Below, in pieces: positions 578 through 7,602 of a stretch of 7,602 nucleotides of DNA (positions are counted from its first letter, which is position 1; each line of letters starts with the position of its first letter). The notes under the pieces were generated by a model. It did not search any database, was not told the DNA's origin, and saw only the letters and a program-made list of their open reading frames with translations. This DNA comes from Pseudomonadota bacterium (GTDB taxonomy: Bacteria; Pseudomonadota; Gammaproteobacteria; Halothiobacillales; Halothiobacillaceae): the NCBI GenBank assembly GCA_021795795.1, contig JAJYPA010000400.1:1-7602 (forward strand), written 5' to 3'. The translations under genes were made by a program, and so were the position numbers.

Positions 578-832
578 TTAGTTGTCCTTACGCCTAACTA
601 TTGCCACCTTATTTCCGCCAACCGAAACAATGCTTGCATTGTGTTCCTCCCTCAGAATTCGACGCACCTCAGTTTTCGTATGGCTATTCTCACGCCGATA
701 GGACGCAAGATATTTCATGTCTGCAGCATCTTGATATGAAACGTCTTTTGTTAAAAGGTCTCTCCTGATAGAACTTGCTATTGCGCTGCGATGCACCTCT
801 AGCTGGTCGTCTGTCAACTCTTTCCTAGCCAT
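578..832 (-). CDS. Small hypothetical protein, 84 aa
   Basis: I do not recognise this protein. It is hydrophilic and rich in Arg, Lys, Asp and Glu, with no signal peptide, membrane segment or Cys, and ends in a basic tail (VAIVRRKDN). Such a composition suits a small cytoplasmic, possibly nucleic-acid-binding protein, but that is inference. The gene looks real because it starts with ATG, has AGGA seven bases upstream on its own strand, and is preceded by a TTGACA -35 box. It is more AT-rich than the R-M operon and lies between two diverged direct repeats, so it resembles a separately acquired cassette. It is divergently oriented from the R-M operon. Confidence 0.7.
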   Translation of the reverse strand: MARKELTDDQLEVHRSAIASSIRRDLLTKDVSYQDAADMKYLASYRRENSHTKTEVRRILREEHNASIVSVGGNKVAIVRRKDN

Positions 833-930: not shown

Positions 931-1082
931 CCTTTTCACGCGCCCATGCGCGAACGGCCTTGCGCTGGCGACCAGATGCTGGCCCTAGCCATCCCAGTCA
1001 GCGGCGCAGCACGCGCCTGTACGCCCATTTTGGGCGGTCGTTTCGGCGGCCGCAGTTCGCTGCGTTGCCTAACAGGGACTAC
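931..1082. repeat. Diverged direct repeat, copy B
   Basis: This is the second copy of the repeat at 294-515. It keeps the CATGCGCGAACGG block, a hairpin (CGCCCA at 1022-1027 with TGGGCG at 1031-1036), the TCGTTTCGGC block and the final GACTAC. It lacks the 75-80 base insertion of copy A. The hairpin arms are kept although the loop and closing pair differ, which may point to a structured RNA or DNA element. No gene is evident in 833-1157, which otherwise holds the promoter of the small gene and the operator of the R-M operon. Confidence 0.6.
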
Positions 1083-1116
1083 TCGCCCCCACTTCGCTCT
1101 TCAGGCTCGTAGCGCA

Positions 1117-1148
1117 TACACCAGTATGGTGTAATATGGTGCATATTA
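1117..1148 (+). promoter_or_regulatory. Tandem palindromic operator and likely promoter of the R-M operon
   Basis: Two perfect inverted repeats overlap by two bases: TACACC-5 nt-GGTGTA (1117-1133) and TAATAT-5 nt-ATATTA (1132-1148). Each has 6-bp arms and a 5-nt spacer. They lie just ahead of the ribbon-helix-helix gene, a usual place for autoregulatory sites of such proteins. TAATAT (1132-1137) or TATTAT (1144-1149) could be the -10 box, so bound repressor would block RNA polymerase. Neither has a clear -35 box, which suggests a weak or activated promoter. A start from TATTAT would give an almost leaderless mRNA. Confidence 0.65.
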
Positions 1149-1157
1149 TGTGGGCGG

Positions 1158-1373
1158 ATGACCATGGCGAACAAAACGAAGCGAGCGGTGAGTCCAAAGA
1201 TAGAAACCCAGACCTTGCGTGCTTCGGTGAGCTTCCCGCGCGATTTGTACGACACCCTCGAACGCATAGCCAGGGACCGTAAGGTGTCCTTGGCCTGGGT
1301 CGTGCGCGACGCGGCGGAAAAATACGTGGGCGACCAGTGGCCGCTGTTCGACGACAGAGGGAAGGGCGCATGA
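1158..1373 (+). CDS. Ribbon-helix-helix (CopG-like) regulator of the R-M operon
   Basis: This 71-aa protein fits the ribbon-helix-helix fold. A basic N-terminal tail is followed by a beta strand with alternating residues (TLRASVSFP, about 19-27), helix A (RDLYDTLERIARDRK) and helix B (SLAWVVRDAAEKYVGD). Such proteins dimerise and insert the strand pair into the DNA major groove. The tail QWPLFDDRGKGA follows the fold. The gene is first in the operon, directly after two tandem palindromes, so it is probably the autoregulator and may play the part that C proteins play in other R-M systems. No clear Shine-Dalgarno site precedes ATG 1158; ATG 1164 is an alternative start. The stop at 1371-1373 abuts the vsr start. 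Confidence 0.85.
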   Translation: MTMANKTKRAVSPKIETQTLRASVSFPRDLYDTLERIARDRKVSLAWVVRDAAEKYVGDQWPLFDDRGKGA

Positions 1374-1781
1374 ATGGACACGCTCGACCCACAGCAACGC
1401 TCGGCGCGGATGGCGCTCGTCCGCAGCAAAAACACAAAGCCGGAACTGGTCGTGCGCCGATTGGTGCATGCGCTCGGCTACCGCTACCGGTTACATCGAT
1501 GCGACTTGCCAGGGACACCCGATCTGGTGTTTGCTGCCCGCAGCAAGGTGATCTTCGTTCATGGCTGCTTCTGGCACCGGCACGTCGGCTGCGCGCTTGC
1601 TAGGCTGCCGAAGTCACGCGTCGACTTTTGGGTGCCGAAACTTGAAGGCAACGCCGAACGCGACAAGCGCAACATGCGTGCGCTTCGGCGCTTGGGGTGG
1701 GGCGTGATGACGATTTGGGAATGCCAGTTGCGCGACACGCCGCAGCTGGAAAGCAGGATCAGGAGGTTCTTGGATGCGTAG
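1374..1781 (+). CDS. vsr: Very short patch repair endonuclease (Vsr)
   Basis: Vsr nicks DNA 5' of the T in T:G mismatches that arise when 5-methylcytosine is deaminated, and so protects sites of a C5-methyltransferase. The 135-aa length matches the family. Visible family features are MDTLDPQQRSARMALVRSKNTKPE at the N-terminus, catalytic Asp50 in LPGTPDLVF, and the HGCFWHRH core with His63, Trp67 and His68. Cys65, His70, Cys73 and Cys117 match the zinc ligands of E. coli Vsr. The ATG directly follows the stop of the regulator gene and has an AAGGG site 7 bases upstream. Its 3' end overlaps the methyltransferase start by 8 bases, so its target is probably that enzyme's recognition site. Confidence 0.96.
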   Translation: MDTLDPQQRSARMALVRSKNTKPELVVRRLVHALGYRYRLHRCDLPGTPDLVFAARSKVIFVHGCFWHRHVGCALARLPKSRVDFWVPKLEGNAERDKRNMRALRRLGWGVMTIWECQLRDTPQLESRIRRFLDA

Positions 1782-2970
1782 CGTTGAACTGTTTGCCGGA
1801 GCTGGTGGTCTGGCAATGGGCATGGGACGGGCTGGCTTCAATCACGCCGCAGTTATCGAGTGGAACCACGATTCCTGCGAGACGTTTCGCTTCAATCAAC
1901 AGAACCACGCCCACGACGTGGAGCAGTGGCCGCTGTTCGAGGGCGATGCCCGCGCATTCGACTACGGCACCATTGGCGGTGACGTGATGGTGGTTTCGGG
2001 CGGCCCCCCGTGCCAACCGTTTTCGCTCGGCGGCAAACACCGCGGCCACATGGACGAACGTGACATGTTCCCGCAGGCGGTGAGGGCGGTCCGCGAGCTT
2101 CAACCCAAGGCTTTCATCTTTGAGAACGTGAAGGGCCTGCTTCGACAAACCTTCGCGTCGTACTTTGAGTACATCTATCTGCAGCTCTCACATCCTGAAC
2201 TCATGCGCAAGAAGGGTGAGACATGGGAACGCCACTGCGGGCGGCTGGAACGGCACCACACCAGCAACAAGGGCGCGGCCAGCTACAATGTGGTCTATCG
2301 GCTTCTGAACGCCGCAGACCATGGCGTGCCGCAACGGCGCGAACGTGTATTCCTGGTTGGCTTCCGCTCTGATTTGGGCGTCGAGTGGGCATTCCCAGAA
2401 GCGACGTACTCCGAGGAAGCCTTGCTTCGCGACATGTGGGTGACCGGCGACTACTGGGAGCGCCACCGGGTGGCGAAACGGAATCGCCCAACGATTCCGC
2501 TCAAGCTGGCGCTACGGATTGCGCGGCTGCGCGACGATGATATATTCACCGGATTACCTTGGAGAACCGTCCGCGACGCGATAGCGGACTTGCCAGACCC
2601 CGAAAAGCACCCCCGAAACGGGATTGCCAATCACGTTTTCAACGCGGGCGCGCGCAGCTATCCTGGTCATACCGGCAGCCCACTGGACGAACCAGCCAAG
2701 ACATTGAAGGCCGGCGACCACGGCGTGCCAGGAGGCGAAAATATGCTGCTACGGCCTAACGGTTCGATGCGCTACTTCACTGCGCGCGAAGCCGCGCGGC
2801 TTCAAACGTTTCCAGATGACTACATTTTTTGCGGGTCATGGACGGAAACAATGCGCCAACTTGGCAACGCCGTGCCGGTGCGCCTGGCTGAAGTAATCGC
2901 GGGTTCGGTGGCTGCCAGCTTGCGCGCGAAAACAGAGAACCTGATGGGACTGGACTGCAATGCGGCATAA
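1774..2970 (+). CDS. DNA (cytosine-5-)-methyltransferase, modification subunit
   Basis: This enzyme transfers a methyl group from S-adenosylmethionine to carbon 5 of cytosine in the recognition site, protecting host DNA. The 398-aa protein shows the family motifs in order: motif I VELFAGAGG (4-12), motif IV GGPPCQPFS (76-84) with catalytic Cys80, motif VI ENV (117-119), motif VIII around QRRER (187-191), a region near KTLKAGDHGVPGG matching motif IX, and motif X GNAVP (364-368). The target recognition domain should lie between about residues 200 and 310. A perfect AGGAGG (1761-1766) sits 7 bases before the ATG, which is inside the vsr end. It is the likely partner of the GIY-YIG nuclease at 4958. 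The end overlaps the FRG gene by 11 bases. Confidence 0.97.
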   Translation: MRSVELFAGAGGLAMGMGRAGFNHAAVIEWNHDSCETFRFNQQNHAHDVEQWPLFEGDARAFDYGTIGGDVMVVSGGPPCQPFSLGGKHRGHMDERDMFPQAVRAVRELQPKAFIFENVKGLLRQTFASYFEYIYLQLSHPELMRKKGETWERHCGRLERHHTSNKGAASYNVVYRLLNAADHGVPQRRERVFLVGFRSDLGVEWAFPEATYSEEALLRDMWVTGDYWERHRVAKRNRPTIPLKLALRIARLRDDDIFTGLPWRTVRDAIADLPDPEKHPRNGIANHVFNAGARSYPGHTGSPLDEPAKTLKAGDHGVPGGENMLLRPNGSMRYFTAREAARLQTFPDDYIFCGSWTETMRQLGNAVPVRLAEVIAGSVAASLRAKTENLMGLDCNAA

Positions 2971-3712
2971 CGATCGTGAAATCAATTCGGTCAACGATCT
3001 ATTGACGTCGCTACGCGAGCTTTCGGCGCAGCGCGAAGTCGTGTGGTTCCGTGGCCACGCAAACAAAGATTGGCAGTTGACTCCGTCCTTGGCGCGCAAC
3101 GTAAACCATCTTCCCAAGGAAAGAGAACTCATCAAACGGTTTATACAGCTCGCCGTGCCGCACTTGACAGAAGATACCCCACGCAATGACTGGGAGTGGA
3201 TATTCTTGATGCAGCACCACCGAGTCCCCACACGCTTGCTTGATTGGACTGAATCACCGCTGGCCGCCCTGTGGTTTGCGGTCAATTCGAGCACGGCAGC
3301 GGACAACACCAGAGACGGCGCGTTCTGGTGCCTGGCGCCACTGTCCCTCAACAGACAAGCGGGCTTCCGCGCACCGTTTGACAACGAACTACCAGGCTTT
3401 GGTAAAGACAATGTGCTGGATGGTTGGTTGCCTGATCGGCAAACCACTGGCTTGGCGCTGAACCCCGTGGCGGCGACCGGTCCGCGGACATCGCGGCGCA
3501 TGGCAGCGCAGCTGGGTAACTTCACCATATCCGACCGCGGCTCTAGTGCGATTGAATTGGTTGGTACAAGAGATCATGTTTGGCGGTTCATAATTCCGGC
3601 AAGCTCCAAGGCGAGTATCGCCGAGGAACTCAAGCTGCTGCGCTTCACAGAATTGACACTCTTCCCCGACTTAGATCGCGTTGCCACATCGACAAAGGAG
3701 CTGTTGGTATGA
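2960..3712 (+). CDS. FRG domain-containing protein
   Basis: The 250-aa protein is a standalone FRG domain, named after a conserved Phe-Arg-Gly. Family hallmarks are WFRGH (29-33), LTPSLAR (40-46), and the long conserved block QHHRVPTRLLDWTESPLAAL (85-104) followed by WFA. GNFTIS and FTELTLFPDLD near the C-terminus also recur in the family. The biochemical activity of FRG proteins is not settled to my knowledge; they are often found in phage and defence loci. Here the gene sits between the methyltransferase and DUF262 genes, overlapping both (11 and 4 bases), so it is co-translated with them and probably acts in the same defence system. Two CCGCGG sites (3482 and 3535) lie within it. Confidence 0.93.
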   Translation: MRHNDREINSVNDLLTSLRELSAQREVVWFRGHANKDWQLTPSLARNVNHLPKERELIKRFIQLAVPHLTEDTPRNDWEWIFLMQHHRVPTRLLDWTESPLAALWFAVNSSTAADNTRDGAFWCLAPLSLNRQAGFRAPFDNELPGFGKDNVLDGWLPDRQTTGLALNPVAATGPRTSRRMAAQLGNFTISDRGSSAIELVGTRDHVWRFIIPASSKASIAEELKLLRFTELTLFPDLDRVATSTKELLV

Positions 3713-4788
3713 GGCCATTTCGGATCACACGCATCAGCGAGCCAGATAATAGCGCTTGGCGTCTTTATCGAACGCGCGAGACGATTCAAGCCGACCCTGA
3801 GTATCAGCGTTTAAGCGATATTTGGACTGAGGAAAAGAAGCAACTGCTCATCGACACAATCCTGAATGGCTTCGATGTGCCAAAGCTGTATTTCCACAAG
3901 TTCCCCACTCCGGTCACTGTAGCGGACAAGGAATACGAATACGCGATCATCGACGGAAAGCAGCGACTTGAAGCGATATGGGAGTTCATCGACGGAAAGT
4001 TCCCGCTGTCTACGGACTTCGAGTGCCTATGGGACACGACGTTGGCCGCTGCGGGAATGACGTACTCGGAGTTAGGGAAAAATTATCCAGACTTGCGCAA
4101 CGCAATCGATAGTTACGGGCTTACCGTAGTTTGTATCGAAACAAACGATCTGGAGATCATCGAGGACATGTTTTCTCGTCTCAACGAGGCGGTGCCGCTC
4201 AGCGCGGCGGAGAAACGCAACGCCAAGGGCGGACCGGTGCCTGGCGCTATCAAGACACTGACGGCAAGCCGGCTCTTCCAAAGCAAGATTCCGTTTGGCA
4301 ACAGCCGGTACCGTCACTTCGACCTGGCTGCCAAGTTCTTAATGTCCACGGAAATGAACAAGGTCATCGACACCAAGAAGCGAACTCTGGATAAGTACGT
4401 CATCAACTGGGCTGCGAAAGCCCCGCGCGATCAGGCCTTACCCTGCTATGGCACTGCTGTGTCGATCACTGAAGACATGGCCAATGTATTCACGGATCGG
4501 GATAGGCTGTTGCGTCAAGTGGGCGTAGTGACCTTGTATTTTCACTTGTTCCGCTTAGCGCGCGCACAAGGCTGGACCGCTGAAATCGAGCGACGCAAGT
4601 TGGATGCCTTCGAGGACGAGAGGGCGCGGAACCGGGCATTAGTCGAGGCCGGCGAAAGTGGAAATGCCGAGCTGATCGAATTTGATCGCTACGCACAATC
4701 GTCAAACGATGCATATGCAGTGAAGATCCGGCTGCGTACACTGCTCAATGCAGTTTTCAACCGCAATGTGACAATCGAAGAGCTGTAG
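3709..4788 (+). CDS. DUF262 (GmrSD N-terminal-like) protein
   Basis: From ATG 3709 the protein is 359 aa. The start overlaps the FRG stop in an ATGA arrangement and has AAGGAG (3695-3700) 8 bases upstream; an in-frame start at 3580 would lie inside the FRG gene and is less likely. DUF262 hallmarks are YQR (32-34), W39 with TEEKKQLLIDTIL, IIDGKQRLEAI (80-90), FSRLN (155-159) and LSAAEKRN (164-171). The domain has a ParB/sulfiredoxin-like fold and occurs in GmrSD-type type IV restriction enzymes and in SspE, where it binds or hydrolyses nucleotides. I see no C-terminal DUF1524 HNH nuclease motif, so any DNA cutting would need a partner, perhaps FRG or the GIY-YIG enzyme. That partnership is inference. 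Confidence 0.93.
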   Translation: MRPFRITRISEPDNSAWRLYRTRETIQADPEYQRLSDIWTEEKKQLLIDTILNGFDVPKLYFHKFPTPVTVADKEYEYAIIDGKQRLEAIWEFIDGKFPLSTDFECLWDTTLAAAGMTYSELGKNYPDLRNAIDSYGLTVVCIETNDLEIIEDMFSRLNEAVPLSAAEKRNAKGGPVPGAIKTLTASRLFQSKIPFGNSRYRHFDLAAKFLMSTEMNKVIDTKKRTLDKYVINWAAKAPRDQALPCYGTAVSITEDMANVFTDRDRLLRQVGVVTLYFHLFRLARAQGWTAEIERRKLDAFEDERARNRALVEAGESGNAELIEFDRYAQSSNDAYAVKIRLRTLLNAVFNRNVTIEEL

Positions 4789-4890
4789 ATGACGCCACAT
4801 ACGGACAACGTGACAACGGCCTATCTGGTGGCGGCGAATCGTGGCAAGGATAATAAGTGGCACGAACAACAAGCTGAGGAGCATCCTTGA
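4789..4890 (+). CDS. Possible 33-aa ORF between DUF262 and the restriction gene
   Basis: An ATG directly follows the DUF262 stop and opens a 33-codon frame (MTPHTDNVTTAYLVAANRGK...HP) with GAAGAG nearby as a weak ribosome binding site. No family is recognised. It ends at 4888-4890, overlapping the TTG of the next tiny ORF. The 13-base sequence CACGAACAACAAG occurs in it (4861-4873) and again 32 bases later. Removing one 32-base interval would fuse both tiny ORFs into one of about 45 codons. It may be a remnant or a coupling peptide. Confidence 0.3.
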   Translation: MTPHTDNVTTAYLVAANRGKDNKWHEQQAEEHP

Positions 4891-4958
4891 GCCACGAACA
4901 ACAAGAACACTGGCCCGTAGGCGCATACACGGACCCCATTCCTATGGTTGATCGGTGA
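4887..4958 (+). CDS. Possible 23-aa leader ORF coupled to the restriction gene
   Basis: A TTG start at 4887 is preceded five bases upstream by AGGAG (4877-4881), the best ribosome binding site in the gap. The 23-codon frame (MSHEQQEHWPVGAYTDPIPM...) ends with TGA at 4956-4958, overlapping the ATG of the restriction gene in a TGATG arrangement. Because the restriction gene lacks its own Shine-Dalgarno site, ribosomes terminating here may re-initiate on it. The peptide itself has no recognised family. Confidence 0.35.
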   Translation: MSHEQQEHWPVGAYTDPIPMVDR

Positions 4959-5725
4959 TGGAGGGGTTCGCCGAATTCGAGTTCGACCTTCCCCGCGCCC
5001 TCAAGGCTGAGCTGATCGGCCTTCTTGATGGGATGGAAACTGGTCTCCTTGACACGACCATCACCGCACACGTGCCGGAAGCGCAGGGGGTCTATCAACT
5101 GTTCTACGACGATGCCTTGGTCTATGTCGGCAAGACTGACGCCGAAGCAGGACTGTGCAAGCGCCTGACACGTCACGCGCGAAAAATCCTGCACCGCCCG
5201 ACGCTCACGGGAGCCGTGCGCTTCAAAGCGGTTCGCATCATGGTGTTCACCGCCATGGACCTAGAAACCCAGCTCATCAAGCACTACCGCGAGGCGCATG
5301 ACGGTGCGGCCGCCTGGAACGGCAGCGGCTTCGGATCAAATGATCCAGGACGGGAGCGCGAGACAACCAACAAGAGCCCCGAGGGTTTCGACGCGCAGCA
5401 CCCTATCAACATCGATCTTGCGGGCGAACTGTTAGAGCCCGGCACCATGTCCGTGGCCGCAGCGCTGTCAACGCTCAAAGCGGCGCTGCCCTACACGCTG
5501 CGCTACGAGACCTTGAGGAACGCACAGGGCCGGGCACGGCGGGGACAACCTCATGCGGATTTAACGGCAACCAACGTCACCATTCTGGCTGGCCCGCAGA
5601 CAGTGCGCGGGCTCATGCAAACGATCAGGGGAACCTTAGGGCCGGCTTGGCAGGCAACCGCCTTCGTAAGCCATGTAATCCTGTATAAGGAAGCGCGCAC
5701 GTATCAGTACGGCGAGGTGCTTTAG
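4958..5725 (+). CDS. GIY-YIG restriction endonuclease, Eco29kI family
   Basis: This is the likely restriction subunit, a type II endonuclease that cuts unmodified DNA. Numbering from ATG 4958 (255 aa), GVY (44-46) and YVG (56-58) replace GIY and YIG. They are followed by Arg69 and His73 in KRLTRHARK, Glu103 in MDLETQLI, and Asn121 in WNGSGFGSNDPGRER, the block typical of Eco29kI. Eco29kI itself recognises CCGCGG; shared specificity is plausible but unproven. GTG 4955 is an alternative start, and a TGA at 4949-4951 rules out anything further upstream. No Shine-Dalgarno site precedes it, so translation may be coupled to the preceding tiny ORF. The C-terminal 100 or so residues extend beyond the known catalytic core. 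Confidence 0.9.
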   Translation: MEGFAEFEFDLPRALKAELIGLLDGMETGLLDTTITAHVPEAQGVYQLFYDDALVYVGKTDAEAGLCKRLTRHARKILHRPTLTGAVRFKAVRIMVFTAMDLETQLIKHYREAHDGAAAWNGSGFGSNDPGRERETTNKSPEGFDAQHPINIDLAGELLEPGTMSVAAALSTLKAALPYTLRYETLRNAQGRARRGQPHADLTATNVTILAGPQTVRGLMQTIRGTLGPAWQATAFVSHVILYKEARTYQYGEVL

Positions 5726-5835
5726 GCCTCTGATGTCCAGTGGAACGGAAAACCTGTTAAGTGGTTATACGCCAGAATCCTCGCAATTTATCCGGACCAT
5801 ATGTGGGGGTGTAAGCCCAAACCCACAGAAAGTTC

Positions 5836-5862
5836 CGCCTTTATCGTCTTAAGGCGTTTTTT
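5836..5862 (+). terminator. Rho-independent terminator of the R-M operon
   Basis: CGCCTT (5836-5841) can pair with AAGGCG (5851-5856) across a 9-base loop, followed directly by six T residues (5857-5862). It lies about 110 bases after the restriction gene stop and is oriented to end plus-strand transcription. The 5726-5835 stretch before it holds no gene that I can see. Confidence 0.75.
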
Positions 5863-5899
5863 ACCGCAAGATGAGTACGCGGTGTATATGTGTTTACAT

Positions 5900-6088
5900 C
5901 TATTTGGGTATGATCGGATTGGACATGACCCGAATGATGCCATCAACATAGGAAAAACGAACGTTTTCTGAACACTTGGTATCTGGACACTTCTGGGGCC
6001 GTTTCCGGCCCAGATTCTGTCCAGTAACCCATCCAGCTTTCAGCGTCCGGTAAACCTCTTCATAACCCCAGATCACTGCGCGACCCAA
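5900..6088 (-). CDS. Small hypothetical protein with a Cys pair, possibly truncated
   Basis: The minus-strand frame gives up to 62 aa from TTG 6088, or 58 aa from GTG 6076. The frame stays open back to a stop at 6122-6124, inside the repeat copy that begins at 6111. Sequence such as GYEEVYRTLKAGWVTGQN and RPQKCPDTKCSENVRFSYVD looks protein-like, and the CPDTKC pair could bind a metal. There is no ATG and no clear ribosome binding site, so it may be the 3' remnant of a gene whose beginning was replaced by the repeat. No family is recognised. Confidence 0.35.
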   Translation of the reverse strand: MGRAVIWGYEEVYRTLKAGWVTGQNLGRKRPQKCPDTKCSENVRFSYVDGIIRVMSNPIIPK

Positions 6089-6110
6089 ACCGGACGAAAA
6101 GCGGCGCCGC

Positions 6111-6323
6111 GAGGGTGTCCACTAAAATGCGCCTTGTATATCCCCACCCCGGCAGGGTTGTTGGCGTAGCCCGCCCGCCGCAAGGCTTCCAAGCAAAACG
6201 AAAAACCGGCTGGCCGCTCACGGCCAGCCCCCCGCCACCGCGCTCACGCGGCAAGGTCCGACTCTCGGCCAGGATCGACCGCACCAGGCATCGAGGTCGG
6301 GCGAGAATCGGCCATATTTGCCC
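6111..6323. repeat. Direct repeat with terminator hairpin, copy 1
   Basis: This segment is about 80-90 percent identical by eye to 6973-7199. Shared landmarks are GAGGGTG at the left edge, ACTAAAATGCGCCTTGTATA, GCTTCCAAGCAAAACGAAAA, the hairpin GGCTGGCC/GGCCAGCC, the second hairpin CCGCG-ctca-CGCGG, GTCCGACTCTCGGCCAGGAT and GGCCATATTTGCCC at the right edge. It lacks a 15-22 base internal duplication seen in copy 2. The stretch 6324-6575 after it holds no convincing gene. Confidence 0.85.
6195..6229 (-). terminator. Minus-strand terminator in repeat copy 1
   Basis: On the minus strand GGCTGGCC and GGCCAGCC (8-bp stem, 6-base loop; plus coordinates 6208-6229) are followed by GG and then TTTTTCGTTTT (6205-6195). 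This is a strong rho-independent terminator shape. It would end transcripts coming from the minus strand to the right. Confidence 0.65.
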
Positions 6324-6459
6324 GCTGAGGGCATCTTGAGGAGTGGGGTGGTAGGGTGGGATCGCCGGGAGCACGCACGCTGCCCGCATCCGCCAACAGA
6401 CAAGAACAGGAACCACACCCATGGTTAGACCAGGGCCAGTGAGCGTCAACCTACCCCAT

Positions 6460-6473
6460 AGAACAACGGTTCT
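6460..6473. other. Short inverted repeat
   Basis: AGAAC (6460-6464) and GTTCT (6469-6473) form a 5-bp hairpin with a 4-base loop, in a stretch with no gene. It could be a small operator or chance. Confidence 0.25.
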
Positions 6474-6575
6474 TCTATAGGCTTTAAGTTACACATTCCG
6501 GATATTTACGATGGGGGTATTTCTGATTATTTTTTCCCAAACGGGGACTTCCCAAGGAAATATCATTTGCACCGA

Positions 6576-6812
6576 TCAGGTCCACCACTTCGGTGCCGAA
6601 GGTATAGACTCTTGCACAAACTGCACAAAAAGCGCGGAGTGCGGGTGCGCTTTATCTTGCATTATACAAAACAGGTATCTTTCTGCAAGAACTCTCCTGG
6701 GTTGCACTCTCCATTCATCAGAAGTGTTTACACCGATACGCGGGGAGTTATTCCATTCTAAACCATCTTTGGCGGATAAATAAAGTACGAAACAATTTGC
6801 GGTGTTTTTCAT
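6576..6812 (-). CDS. Possible small hypothetical protein, 78 aa
   Basis: An ATG at 6812 on the minus strand opens a 78-codon frame (MKNTANCFVLYLSAKDGLEW...) ending at 6576. The region is less GC-rich than the flanks. The amino-acid composition is plausible for a small cytoplasmic protein, with no recognised domain. The ribosome binding site is poor. The minus-strand terminator at 6229-6195 lies some 350 bases further on and could serve it. The overlapping plus-strand frame (6511-6783) is Cys-rich and less convincing. Confidence 0.3.
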   Translation of the reverse strand: MKNTANCFVLYLSAKDGLEWNNSPRIGVNTSDEWRVQPRRVLAERYLFCIMQDKAHPHSALFVQFVQESIPSAPKWWT

Positions 6813-6987
6813 CCGTTGTGGGTGGCAAGGGATTTTCCTATTCGGAACTGTGAGGGGCTTTTCCCAGGTCGAAAAACGCGCCCAGGCGCGGGCTATGCGC
6901 GATGGCGGGTCATCCTTCCGCCAGATCGCGGCCGAGATCGGCGTCCATCACCGCACGATCCAGAAGTGGTGTGAGGGTGGCGACTAA
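6802..6987 (+). pseudogene. Helix-turn-helix fragment (homeodomain-like)
   Basis: The last 38 or so residues of this 61-codon frame, from EKRAQARAMRDGGSSFRQIA to the end, form a clear helix-turn-helix: a helix with AMRDGG, then SSFRQIAAEIGV, then HHRTIQKWCEGG. This pattern occurs at the C-terminus of resolvases and in transposases and terminase-like proteins. The N-terminal part looks non-coding, and GTG 6802 has no good ribosome binding site. I therefore read it as the tail of a lost recombinase or replication gene. Its stop codon falls at 6985-6987, within the left edge of repeat copy 2. It could instead be a tiny DNA-binding protein starting at GTG 6850 or ATG 6894. Confidence 0.4.
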
Positions 6988-7199
6988 AATGCGCCTTGTA
7001 TAGCCCCCCGGAGGGTAGGGCGTAGCCCGCCTGCTGCAAGGCTTCCAAGCAAAACGAAAAACCGGCTGGCCGCTCACGGCCAGGCCCCGCAGCCGCGCTC
7101 ACGCGGCAAGGTCCGACTCTCGGCCAGGATCGGCCGCACCAGGCGTCGAGATCGAGGCCACCGGCATCGAGGTCGGGCGGAAACCGGCCATATTTGCCC
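6973..7199. repeat. Direct repeat with terminator hairpin, copy 2
   Basis: This is the second copy of the 6111-6323 repeat, 862 bases further on and in the same orientation. It has an extra GAGATCGAGGCCACCGGC-like stretch near 7147-7164, so the motif GGC(G/A)TCGAG(G/A)TCG occurs twice. It covers most of the sequence after the stop of the KfrA-like gene on the minus strand. Confidence 0.85.
7051..7083 (-). terminator. Minus-strand terminator in repeat copy 2, after the KfrA-like gene
   Basis: On the minus strand CTGGCC/GGCCAG (plus coordinates 7066-7071 and 7078-7083) form a hairpin followed by TTTTTCGTTTT (7061-7051). It lies about 165 bases downstream of the stop at 7247 and probably ends the KfrA-like transcript. 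Confidence 0.65.
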
Positions 7200-7246
7200 T
7201 CAGAGCGATTTTCTCGATCGGGGTAGGGTCCACAGCAGGGATGCGG

Positions 7247-7602
7247 TTATTTCTCGCCTCTCCCGGCCCCGGAAGGTTTCCGCGGTTGCCATTCCGAGAT
7301 CACCCGTTGCAACGCCTCGACCTGCCCGCGCAACTCGGCGGCGGTTTCTCGGGCTTCTGTGGTCTCCTGTCGCCGTCGCTCGATCTCCTGCCGCTGCTCC
7401 TCGATGGCCCTGGTCAGTTCAGCGAGTTTAGCCTCCATGGCTTGGATTTCGATCCTAGCCTGATCCAGCTCTGACGCCAGGCTATCGGCCAGCTCTGCGG
7501 CTTCGGCGCGTTCCTGTTCCAACTCCTGCCGCGCCGCCTCCAGGGCGGCTCGTTCCGCCTGGAGTTTTTCGTGGGCCAGGGCGGAGGCCTGCGCCCACAG
7601 GG
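7247..7602 (-). CDS. KfrA-like coiled-coil plasmid protein, C-terminal part
   Basis: The minus-strand frame stays open from the right edge to a TAA at 7247, giving about 118 residues of a gene whose start lies outside the window. The protein is an almost unbroken coiled coil rich in Ala, Glu, Gln and Arg (for example ALAHEKLQAERAALEAARQE and EEQRQEIERRRQETTEARE), ending in a basic tail with KPSGAGRGEK. The opening LWAQASALAHEKLQAER resembles the point where KfrA proteins pass from their DNA-binding N-terminal domain into the coiled coil. KfrA is an autoregulated plasmid protein linked to stable inheritance in IncP-type plasmids. The DNA-binding domain is not visible here, so another coiled-coil protein remains possible. 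A terminator lies in the following repeat. Confidence 0.6.
   Translation of the reverse strand, partial: LWAQASALAHEKLQAERAALEAARQELEQERAEAAELADSLASELDQARIEIQAMEAKLAELTRAIEEQRQEIERRRQETTEARETAAELRGQVEALQRVISEWQPRKPSGAGRGEK

Follow-up and report, generated by a model that had tools for sequence, protein, structure and literature searches.

An FRG-DUF262 gene cassette recurrently linked to Eco29kI-type restriction-modification systems, possibly as an abortive backup

The 7,602-nucleotide (nt) contig JAJYPA010000400.1, from a bacterium of the Halothiobacillaceae (assembly GCA_021795795.1) and referred to here at its full length as the window, carries a restriction-modification (R-M) locus in which the genes for an FRG-domain protein and a DUF262 protein lie between those for a C5-cytosine methyltransferase (M) and a GIY-YIG restriction endonuclease (R). 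Comparisons with other genomes identify FRG and DUF262 as a strict pair, i.e., as one cassette, and reveal that one clade of this pair is linked to Eco29kI-type R-M systems in unrelated hosts. To account for this linkage we tentatively propose, as possible rather than probable, that FRG and DUF262 form a portable module of effector and sensor, and that one of its clades would serve Eco29kI-type R-M as an abortive backup.

Close relatives were defined as loci whose DUF262 is at least 47% identical to that of the window (L004 to L013, L017, G064, G933, and G1094; n = 14, window excluded). Of the 14, 11 (L004 to L008, L011 to L013, G064, G933, and G1094) have an Eco29kI-type R gene and a C5-methyltransferase gene beside the pair; two genes separate R from FRG in L007, and no vsr (very short patch repair endonuclease) gene was seen in L004, L005, and G1094. 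L017 has a methyltransferase gene and an unknown 178-amino-acid (aa) gene beside the pair; neither R nor M was seen in L009 and L010, on contigs that end 1.4 and 2.6 kb downstream, and the genome of L009 (G006) has an Eco29kI gene on another contig, away from the pair. G064, G933, and G1094 were new in whole-genome searches, and all three are linked. Below 47% identity only 1 of 11 loci is linked, namely G1153, a partial DUF262 at a contig edge that was counted as linked with its FRG side out of view; the unlinked loci are L014 to L016, G381, G238, G275, G559, G1102, G1217, and a Hymenobacter plasmid. On a DUF262 tree of 27 rows, the linkage label requires 6 changes versus 9.3 in shuffles, a value as low being reached in 13 of 500. 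The methyltransferases of the linked loci all belong to one family, 45 to 72% identical to the M of the window, with three other C5-methyltransferases at 28 to 32%.

The Eco29kI family was detected in 9 of the 13 genomes of a scan based on the DUF262 alignment (in 8 of them beside the pair) versus 17 of 693 background genomes (Fisher P = 1.8e-11), the latter comprising 12/397 Pseudomonadota and 5/296 Acidobacteriota, with one match below the cut-off and the scan-centre genomes G002 and G005 removed from the counts. This base rate covers these two phyla only, and three of the 13 scan genomes are Actinomycetota. The scan depends on exact short words, making its 13 loci a biased sample; the whole-genome searches were free of that filter but centred on genomes that the scan had found. 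The R-M profiles were made for Eco29kI-type systems, and other R-M types nearby could be missed. Looked at from the side of the nuclease, the pair lay beside R in 1 of the 17 sampled Eco29kI-family genomes, with none seen in the other 16, a lower bound because six of the loci (L047, L048, L050, L053, L054, and L056) are near contig ends; the matches in G447, G583, and G605 are partial, odd, or below the cut-off. The pair is thus an accessory that such a nuclease can do without. Overall, the close form of the module usually accompanies the Eco29kI R-M type, and the R-M type seldom carries the module. The preliminary description of this DNA had asked whether FRG-DUF262 pairs occur near Eco29kI-family nucleases and C5-methyltransferases elsewhere, and had regarded their absence from other genomes as evidence against a composite system; since the pair recurs with such genes in 11 of the 14 close relatives, no such absence was found.

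A first hint that FRG and DUF262 belong together was that many of their protein-database matches lie on equally long contigs; for DUF262 there were 2765 homologues. FRG is directly upstream of DUF262 in all 15 loci of the DUF262-alignment scan (13 genomes plus two near-identical viral contigs), the called FRG frame of L015 running on into DUF262. The same arrangement was found in G064, G381, G238, G275, G559, G933, G1094, G1102, and G1217, in the Hymenobacter plasmid, and in seven viral contigs (L106 to L112). FRG immediately precedes DUF262 in all further whole-genome matches at E ≤ 1e-30 with the upstream side on the contig, and stands directly before it in 14/14 relatives with a DUF262 at least 47% identical. 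Across 13 loci the pairwise identities of the two proteins are strongly correlated (r = 0.94, Mantel P = 0.0002). L018, which is nearly the same as L017, was not counted; the contigs of these two loci also appear as L104 and L105. Three loci with a DUF262 of 30 to 34% identity, G146, G749, and G936, had no FRG match in the stretch scanned (only about 3.5 kb in G749 and G936) and were not counted as pairs. The FRG alignment yielded 31 viral loci, 22 of which, beyond L104 to L112, lack a DUF262 match right after FRG, some of them at a contig end, which implies that the FRG family also occurs without DUF262. A scan of viral contigs with a single DUF262 sequence gave no confirmed locus.

M and DUF262 identities are only weakly correlated over the same number of loci (r = 0.44, P = 0.02), and not once the Streptomyces locus L013 is left out (r = 0.08, P = 0.26). 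In L011 the M is the closest to that of the window (72%) with a DUF262 at 55%, and L004 is the reverse (M 60 to 62%, DUF262 77%). Taken together with the FRG-DUF262 correlation, this indicates a combination that was kept despite reshuffling between the cassette and the R-M backbone. The pair is carried by two R subfamilies, a canonical one (such as in L004 to L008) and that of the window (window, L013, and G933). Its position also varies. It comes directly after R in L004, L008, L011, G064, and G1094 and follows M-R-vsr in L007, whereas it stands ahead of vsr-M-R in L012 and of M-R in G1153. In G933, where R is reversed, it is found beyond vsr; in L013 it precedes a reversed R and M. Relative to M, it is convergent in L005 and divergent in L006. 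What remains constant across the linked positions is the methyltransferase family. Only in the window does the pair lie between M and R, so the interposition on which the preliminary description drew is peculiar to this locus, and M-FRG-DUF262-R was rejected as a conserved gene order. Also rejected was a replacement of the endonuclease by FRG-DUF262, because the linked R genes keep the six active-site residues described below; L017 is the one possible exception. The 178-aa protein of that locus (positions 1617 to 2153), located between M and FRG at the place of R, could be an unrecognized endonuclease; it matched no family, and its 93 homologues (E ≤ 1e-5), none with a Pfam domain, are named "hypothetical" or "uncharacterized." In the Burkholderia arboris locus L012 (positions 1020 to 6950), two Eco29kI-family endonuclease genes flank FRG-DUF262, only one of them with an adjoining methyltransferase gene.

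In the window, six genes, all on the plus strand, occupy positions 1158 to 5725 as follows.

1158..1373, plus strand: small ribbon-helix-helix (RHH, CopG-like) regulator, 71 aa; RHH_1 PF01402, 6.3e-7
1374..1781, plus strand: vsr, very short patch repair endonuclease, 135 aa; PF03852, 1e-28; TIGR00632, 4e-43
1774..2970, plus strand: C5-cytosine methyltransferase (M), 398 aa; DNA_methylase PF00145, 9.6e-59
2960..3712, plus strand: FRG-domain protein, predicted effector of ADP-ribosyltransferase (ART) fold, 250 aa; FRG PF08867, 4e-27
ATG 3709..4788, plus strand: DUF262/GmrSD_N protein, ParB/Srx-like fold, 359 aa; PF03235, 5e-17
4789..4954, no strand: spacer before R; longest ATG frame 33 codons, no gene seen; 13-nt direct repeat at 4861 and 4893
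GTG 4955 or ATG 4958..5725, plus strand: GIY-YIG type II restriction endonuclease (R) of a divergent Eco29kI subfamily, 256 aa (255 from ATG 4958); PF09517, 2.8e-4

Coordinates and family matches confirm the gene order, and the overlaps of starts and stops through DUF262, that had initially been read from the sequence. RHH and vsr abut, and the overlaps amount to 8 nt (vsr/M), 11 nt (M/FRG), and 4 nt (FRG/DUF262); the 166 nt from DUF262 to R are the sole gap. We placed the DUF262 start at ATG 3709 because the longer frame (from TTG 3580) enters frg and the relatives begin at the same place. The RHH protein, which has a 63% identical counterpart ahead of vsr-M in L011, probably controls the operon.

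The locus may perhaps reside on a plasmid or other mobile element. The last 415 nt of the window (7188 to 7602), encoding a minus-strand coiled-coil protein that is weakly KfrA-like, are 86.8% identical in DNA to the Acidithiobacillus ferrooxidans plasmid CP084177, and the closest named FRG relative is from A. ferrivorans (86%), which makes an Acidithiobacillus the probable host. Two imperfect direct repeats of about 220 nt (6111 to 6329 and 6973 to 7205; blocks 88 to 96% identical, spacing 855 to 876 nt) flank a small helix-turn-helix open reading frame (ORF) of 61 aa (6802 to 6987; PF13936, 2e-6), possibly a plasmid or mobile-element feature. Upstream of the R-M operon and divergent from it is an 84-aa ORF without a family match (578 to 832, minus strand).

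The FRG protein scored 95.4 bits against PF08867 (cut-off, 25), and its predicted structure resembles, with weak scores, ADP-ribosyltransferases; R31, D95, and Q184 stand out by conservation. Foldseek alone gave semialdehyde dehydrogenases in its top 14 rows, at low TM-scores, and these were taken as chance matches. Burroughs and Aravind reportedly placed the Frg domain in the ART superfamily in 2020, and the FRG of the window is like that domain in its PF08867 match and may be so in its weakly predicted ART-like fold. According to the available text of Iyer et al. 2022 (PMC9503650), Frg is an ART-superfamily domain, among the signal-generating ART enzymes, and might act as an NADase; the word DUF262 is absent from the paper, and a link to Eco29kI R-M is not mentioned in that portion.

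The DUF262 protein scored 63.2 bits against PF03235 (GmrSD_N), contains the motifs PEYQR, DGKQR, FSRLNE, and QSSND (residues 30, 82, 155, and 330), and has a predicted structure like those of BrxU, SspE, and ParB. In its 359 aa no DUF1524 HNH nuclease domain was matched at E ≤ 0.1, and it was rejected as a GmrSD-type nuclease in its own right because no HNH domain was matched. Its best PADLOC model is NsnA (1.3e-25), which we take to be a Menshen gene; a search of open-licence PubMed Central (PMC) for NsnA in that role found no paper. It shares the ParB/Srx-like domain and the DGxQR motif with BrxU/GmrSD, SspE, Menshen, Dazbog, and PD-T4-2 (PMC10952713, from the part of the text available), and differs from them in having no DUF1524 match and FRG as its partner. 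No match was found in an NCBIfam search with FRG, DUF262, and R, and PDB sequence searches with the same three proteins gave nothing meaningful.

As to the backbone, R scored 21.2 bits against PF09517 (RE_Eco29kI), under the 30.8-bit cut-off (E = 2.8e-4), and is therefore regarded as a divergent relative of the Eco29kI family; L013, of the same R subfamily, reached 35.5 bits, above the cut-off, and the R of the window is 50 to 52% identical to the endonucleases of L001 and L002. The active-site residues given for R.Eco29kI in the accessible part of PMC1952068, Y49, Y76, R104, H108, E142, and N154, are all kept in the R of the window and in 19/19 aligned endonucleases. Identity between this M and M.Eco29kI is 49% overall and rises to 79% in residues 292 to 325, where three unrelated C5-methyltransferases reach 21 to 33%, suggesting that its target is perhaps CCGCGG. 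Two points weigh against this assignment: residues 196 to 304 are only 43% identical to M.Eco29kI, and residues 292 to 325 presumably overlap in part a general methyltransferase motif. By homology, then, the locus is a type II R-M system with 5-methylcytosine (m5C) modification. The earlier label "Eco29kI-like" holds for the active-site residues and for an M of the M.Eco29kI kind, with the reservation that R itself falls under the family cut-off.

The Eco29kI system of the Escherichia coli plasmid pECO29 resembles the locus in its GIY-YIG endonuclease, with the same six residues, and in its methyltransferase; only R followed by M is annotated there (the gene table may be incomplete), and the R of the window is of a divergent subfamily. 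Rhizobium WSM1325 pR132502, Methylocaldum MSZNORminor, and Ruegeria YS9 have the same vsr, M, and R (R 43 to 52% and M 57 to 64% identical to those of the window). Unlike in the window, their M and R overlap by 1 to 4 nt, and the annotation shows neither FRG nor DUF262 out to 8 kb (in Ruegeria 5 kb on one side, in Methylocaldum 2.5 kb). On a Paraburkholderia plasmid (L103, 836 to 12220), vsr-M-Eco29kI R lies near genes annotated as abortive infection family protein, PIN domain, and SIR2 family, another possible effector pairing.

The pair is also found in other settings. Distant pairs adjoin brxL in L014 (10235 to 12232) and the bacteriophage exclusion (BREX) genes BrxHI, PglZ, and BrxC in L015 (3722 to 12666); in G1102 a mad3-like ATPase gene lies about 2 kb from the pair. 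Hence two, perhaps three, other settings involve methylation-linked defences. The pair of G238 is in a prophage (terminase and portal genes), L017 adjoins an integrase gene, and for the seven viral-contig pairs (L106 to L112) the available stretch showed none of the kinds of R-M gene scanned for. The pair can therefore exist apart from an R-M system. The composite system initially proposed appears sensible in view of the recurrent linkage and of the predicted ART-like and nucleoside triphosphate (NTP)-binding-type folds, with the qualification that the pair family also occurs without R-M genes in reach.

Under the abortive backup that we propose, R would be the first line, cutting unmethylated invading DNA, while DUF262, as an NTP-dependent sensor or switch, would keep the ART-like FRG silent and monitor the condition of the DNA or of the R-M enzymes. 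Restriction would fail if R were blocked or if target DNA persisted unmethylated or with abnormal modification; in that case DUF262 would free FRG, which would then consume NAD+ or ADP-ribosylate a host target, and the infected cell would be stopped. Such logic would be like that of PrrC in EcoprrI or of PARIS, differing in its ART-like effector and its type II setting. As described in the available part of PMC12707154, these are R-M guards that trigger abortive infection in response to blocked restriction or to the appearance of an antirestriction protein. What the pair shares with them is a conserved linkage to R-M, seen in 11/14 close relatives and not in distant ones, from which a functional coupling may be surmised by analogy; the tRNA nuclease PrrC belongs to a type IC system, as opposed to an ART-like FRG plus DUF262 at a type II system. 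We consider unlikely on present evidence a more specific version, in which DUF262 would respond to the methylation that R also reads, distinguishing methylated target sites from unmethylated ones, and would gate an ART that consumes NAD+; a single methyltransferase would then inform two independent effectors (cutting and suicide).

Only somewhat less likely than the backup function, and a serious contender, is that the pair is a self-sufficient two-gene defence or toxin-sensor module whose link to R-M reflects co-mobilization without mechanistic coupling, with post-segregational killing by the R-M genes stabilizing the cassette. This would fit the distant pairs without detected R-M on viral contigs (7/7), in the G238 prophage, and elsewhere, as well as the resemblance of the 3′ end of the window to an Acidithiobacillus plasmid, and plasmid-borne Eco29kI does cause post-segregational killing (PMC11324026, available portion). 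Passive linkage, however, should bring in many R-M types, and the methyltransferases of the close clade are all of one family; the linked R-M type is moreover rare (17/693 genomes), and the combination recurs even though M and cassette have been reshuffled.

The remaining explanations appear weaker. That DUF262 reads DNA modifications in the manner of BrxU, GmrSD, or Dazbog, detecting modified phage cytosines that block R and then firing FRG, has in its favor that the DUF262 proteins BrxU and GmrSD act on modified cytosines, that BrxU complements BREX, and that two distant pairs adjoin BREX genes; we nevertheless think it improbable, as host target sites bear m5C from the neighboring M and a plain m5C reader would be autoreactive, and as neither a DUF1524 nuclease nor a Pfam modified-DNA-binding domain was matched. 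The position of the pair between M and R, together with the overlapping or abutting genes up to DUF262, could also mean that FRG-DUF262 regulates or assists the endonuclease, either by delaying R after entry or by joining a cutting complex. The relatives place the pair elsewhere relative to R, vsr-M-R occurs without it in L001 to L003, and pECO29 has R-M alone, all of which makes this very improbable.

An accessory effector linked to R-M is already known. An FRG-DUF262 cassette with a type II Eco29kI-like system was not found in open-licence PMC papers, searched mostly at listing level, nor any paper there joining "FRG domain" and "DUF262," a pairing that may still be published; the available parts of a paper on Fervidacidithiobacillus defences (PMC12375680) and of PMC9519451 contain no FRG or DUF262. 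Type II R-M is usually viewed as a self-contained device of two enzymes, and here the same predicted pair of effector and sensor accompanies one rare R-M family in Pseudomonadota, Acidobacteriota, and a Streptomyces. Whether type II R-M systems have abortive backups thereby becomes directly testable in E. coli, and the FRG domain would gain a natural genetic context and, hence, a testable trigger. If the pair were indeed a methylation-reading second arm, the BREX-adjacent pairs would do likewise for BREX methylation, and FRG-DUF262 would be a general abortive add-on for methylation-based immunity.

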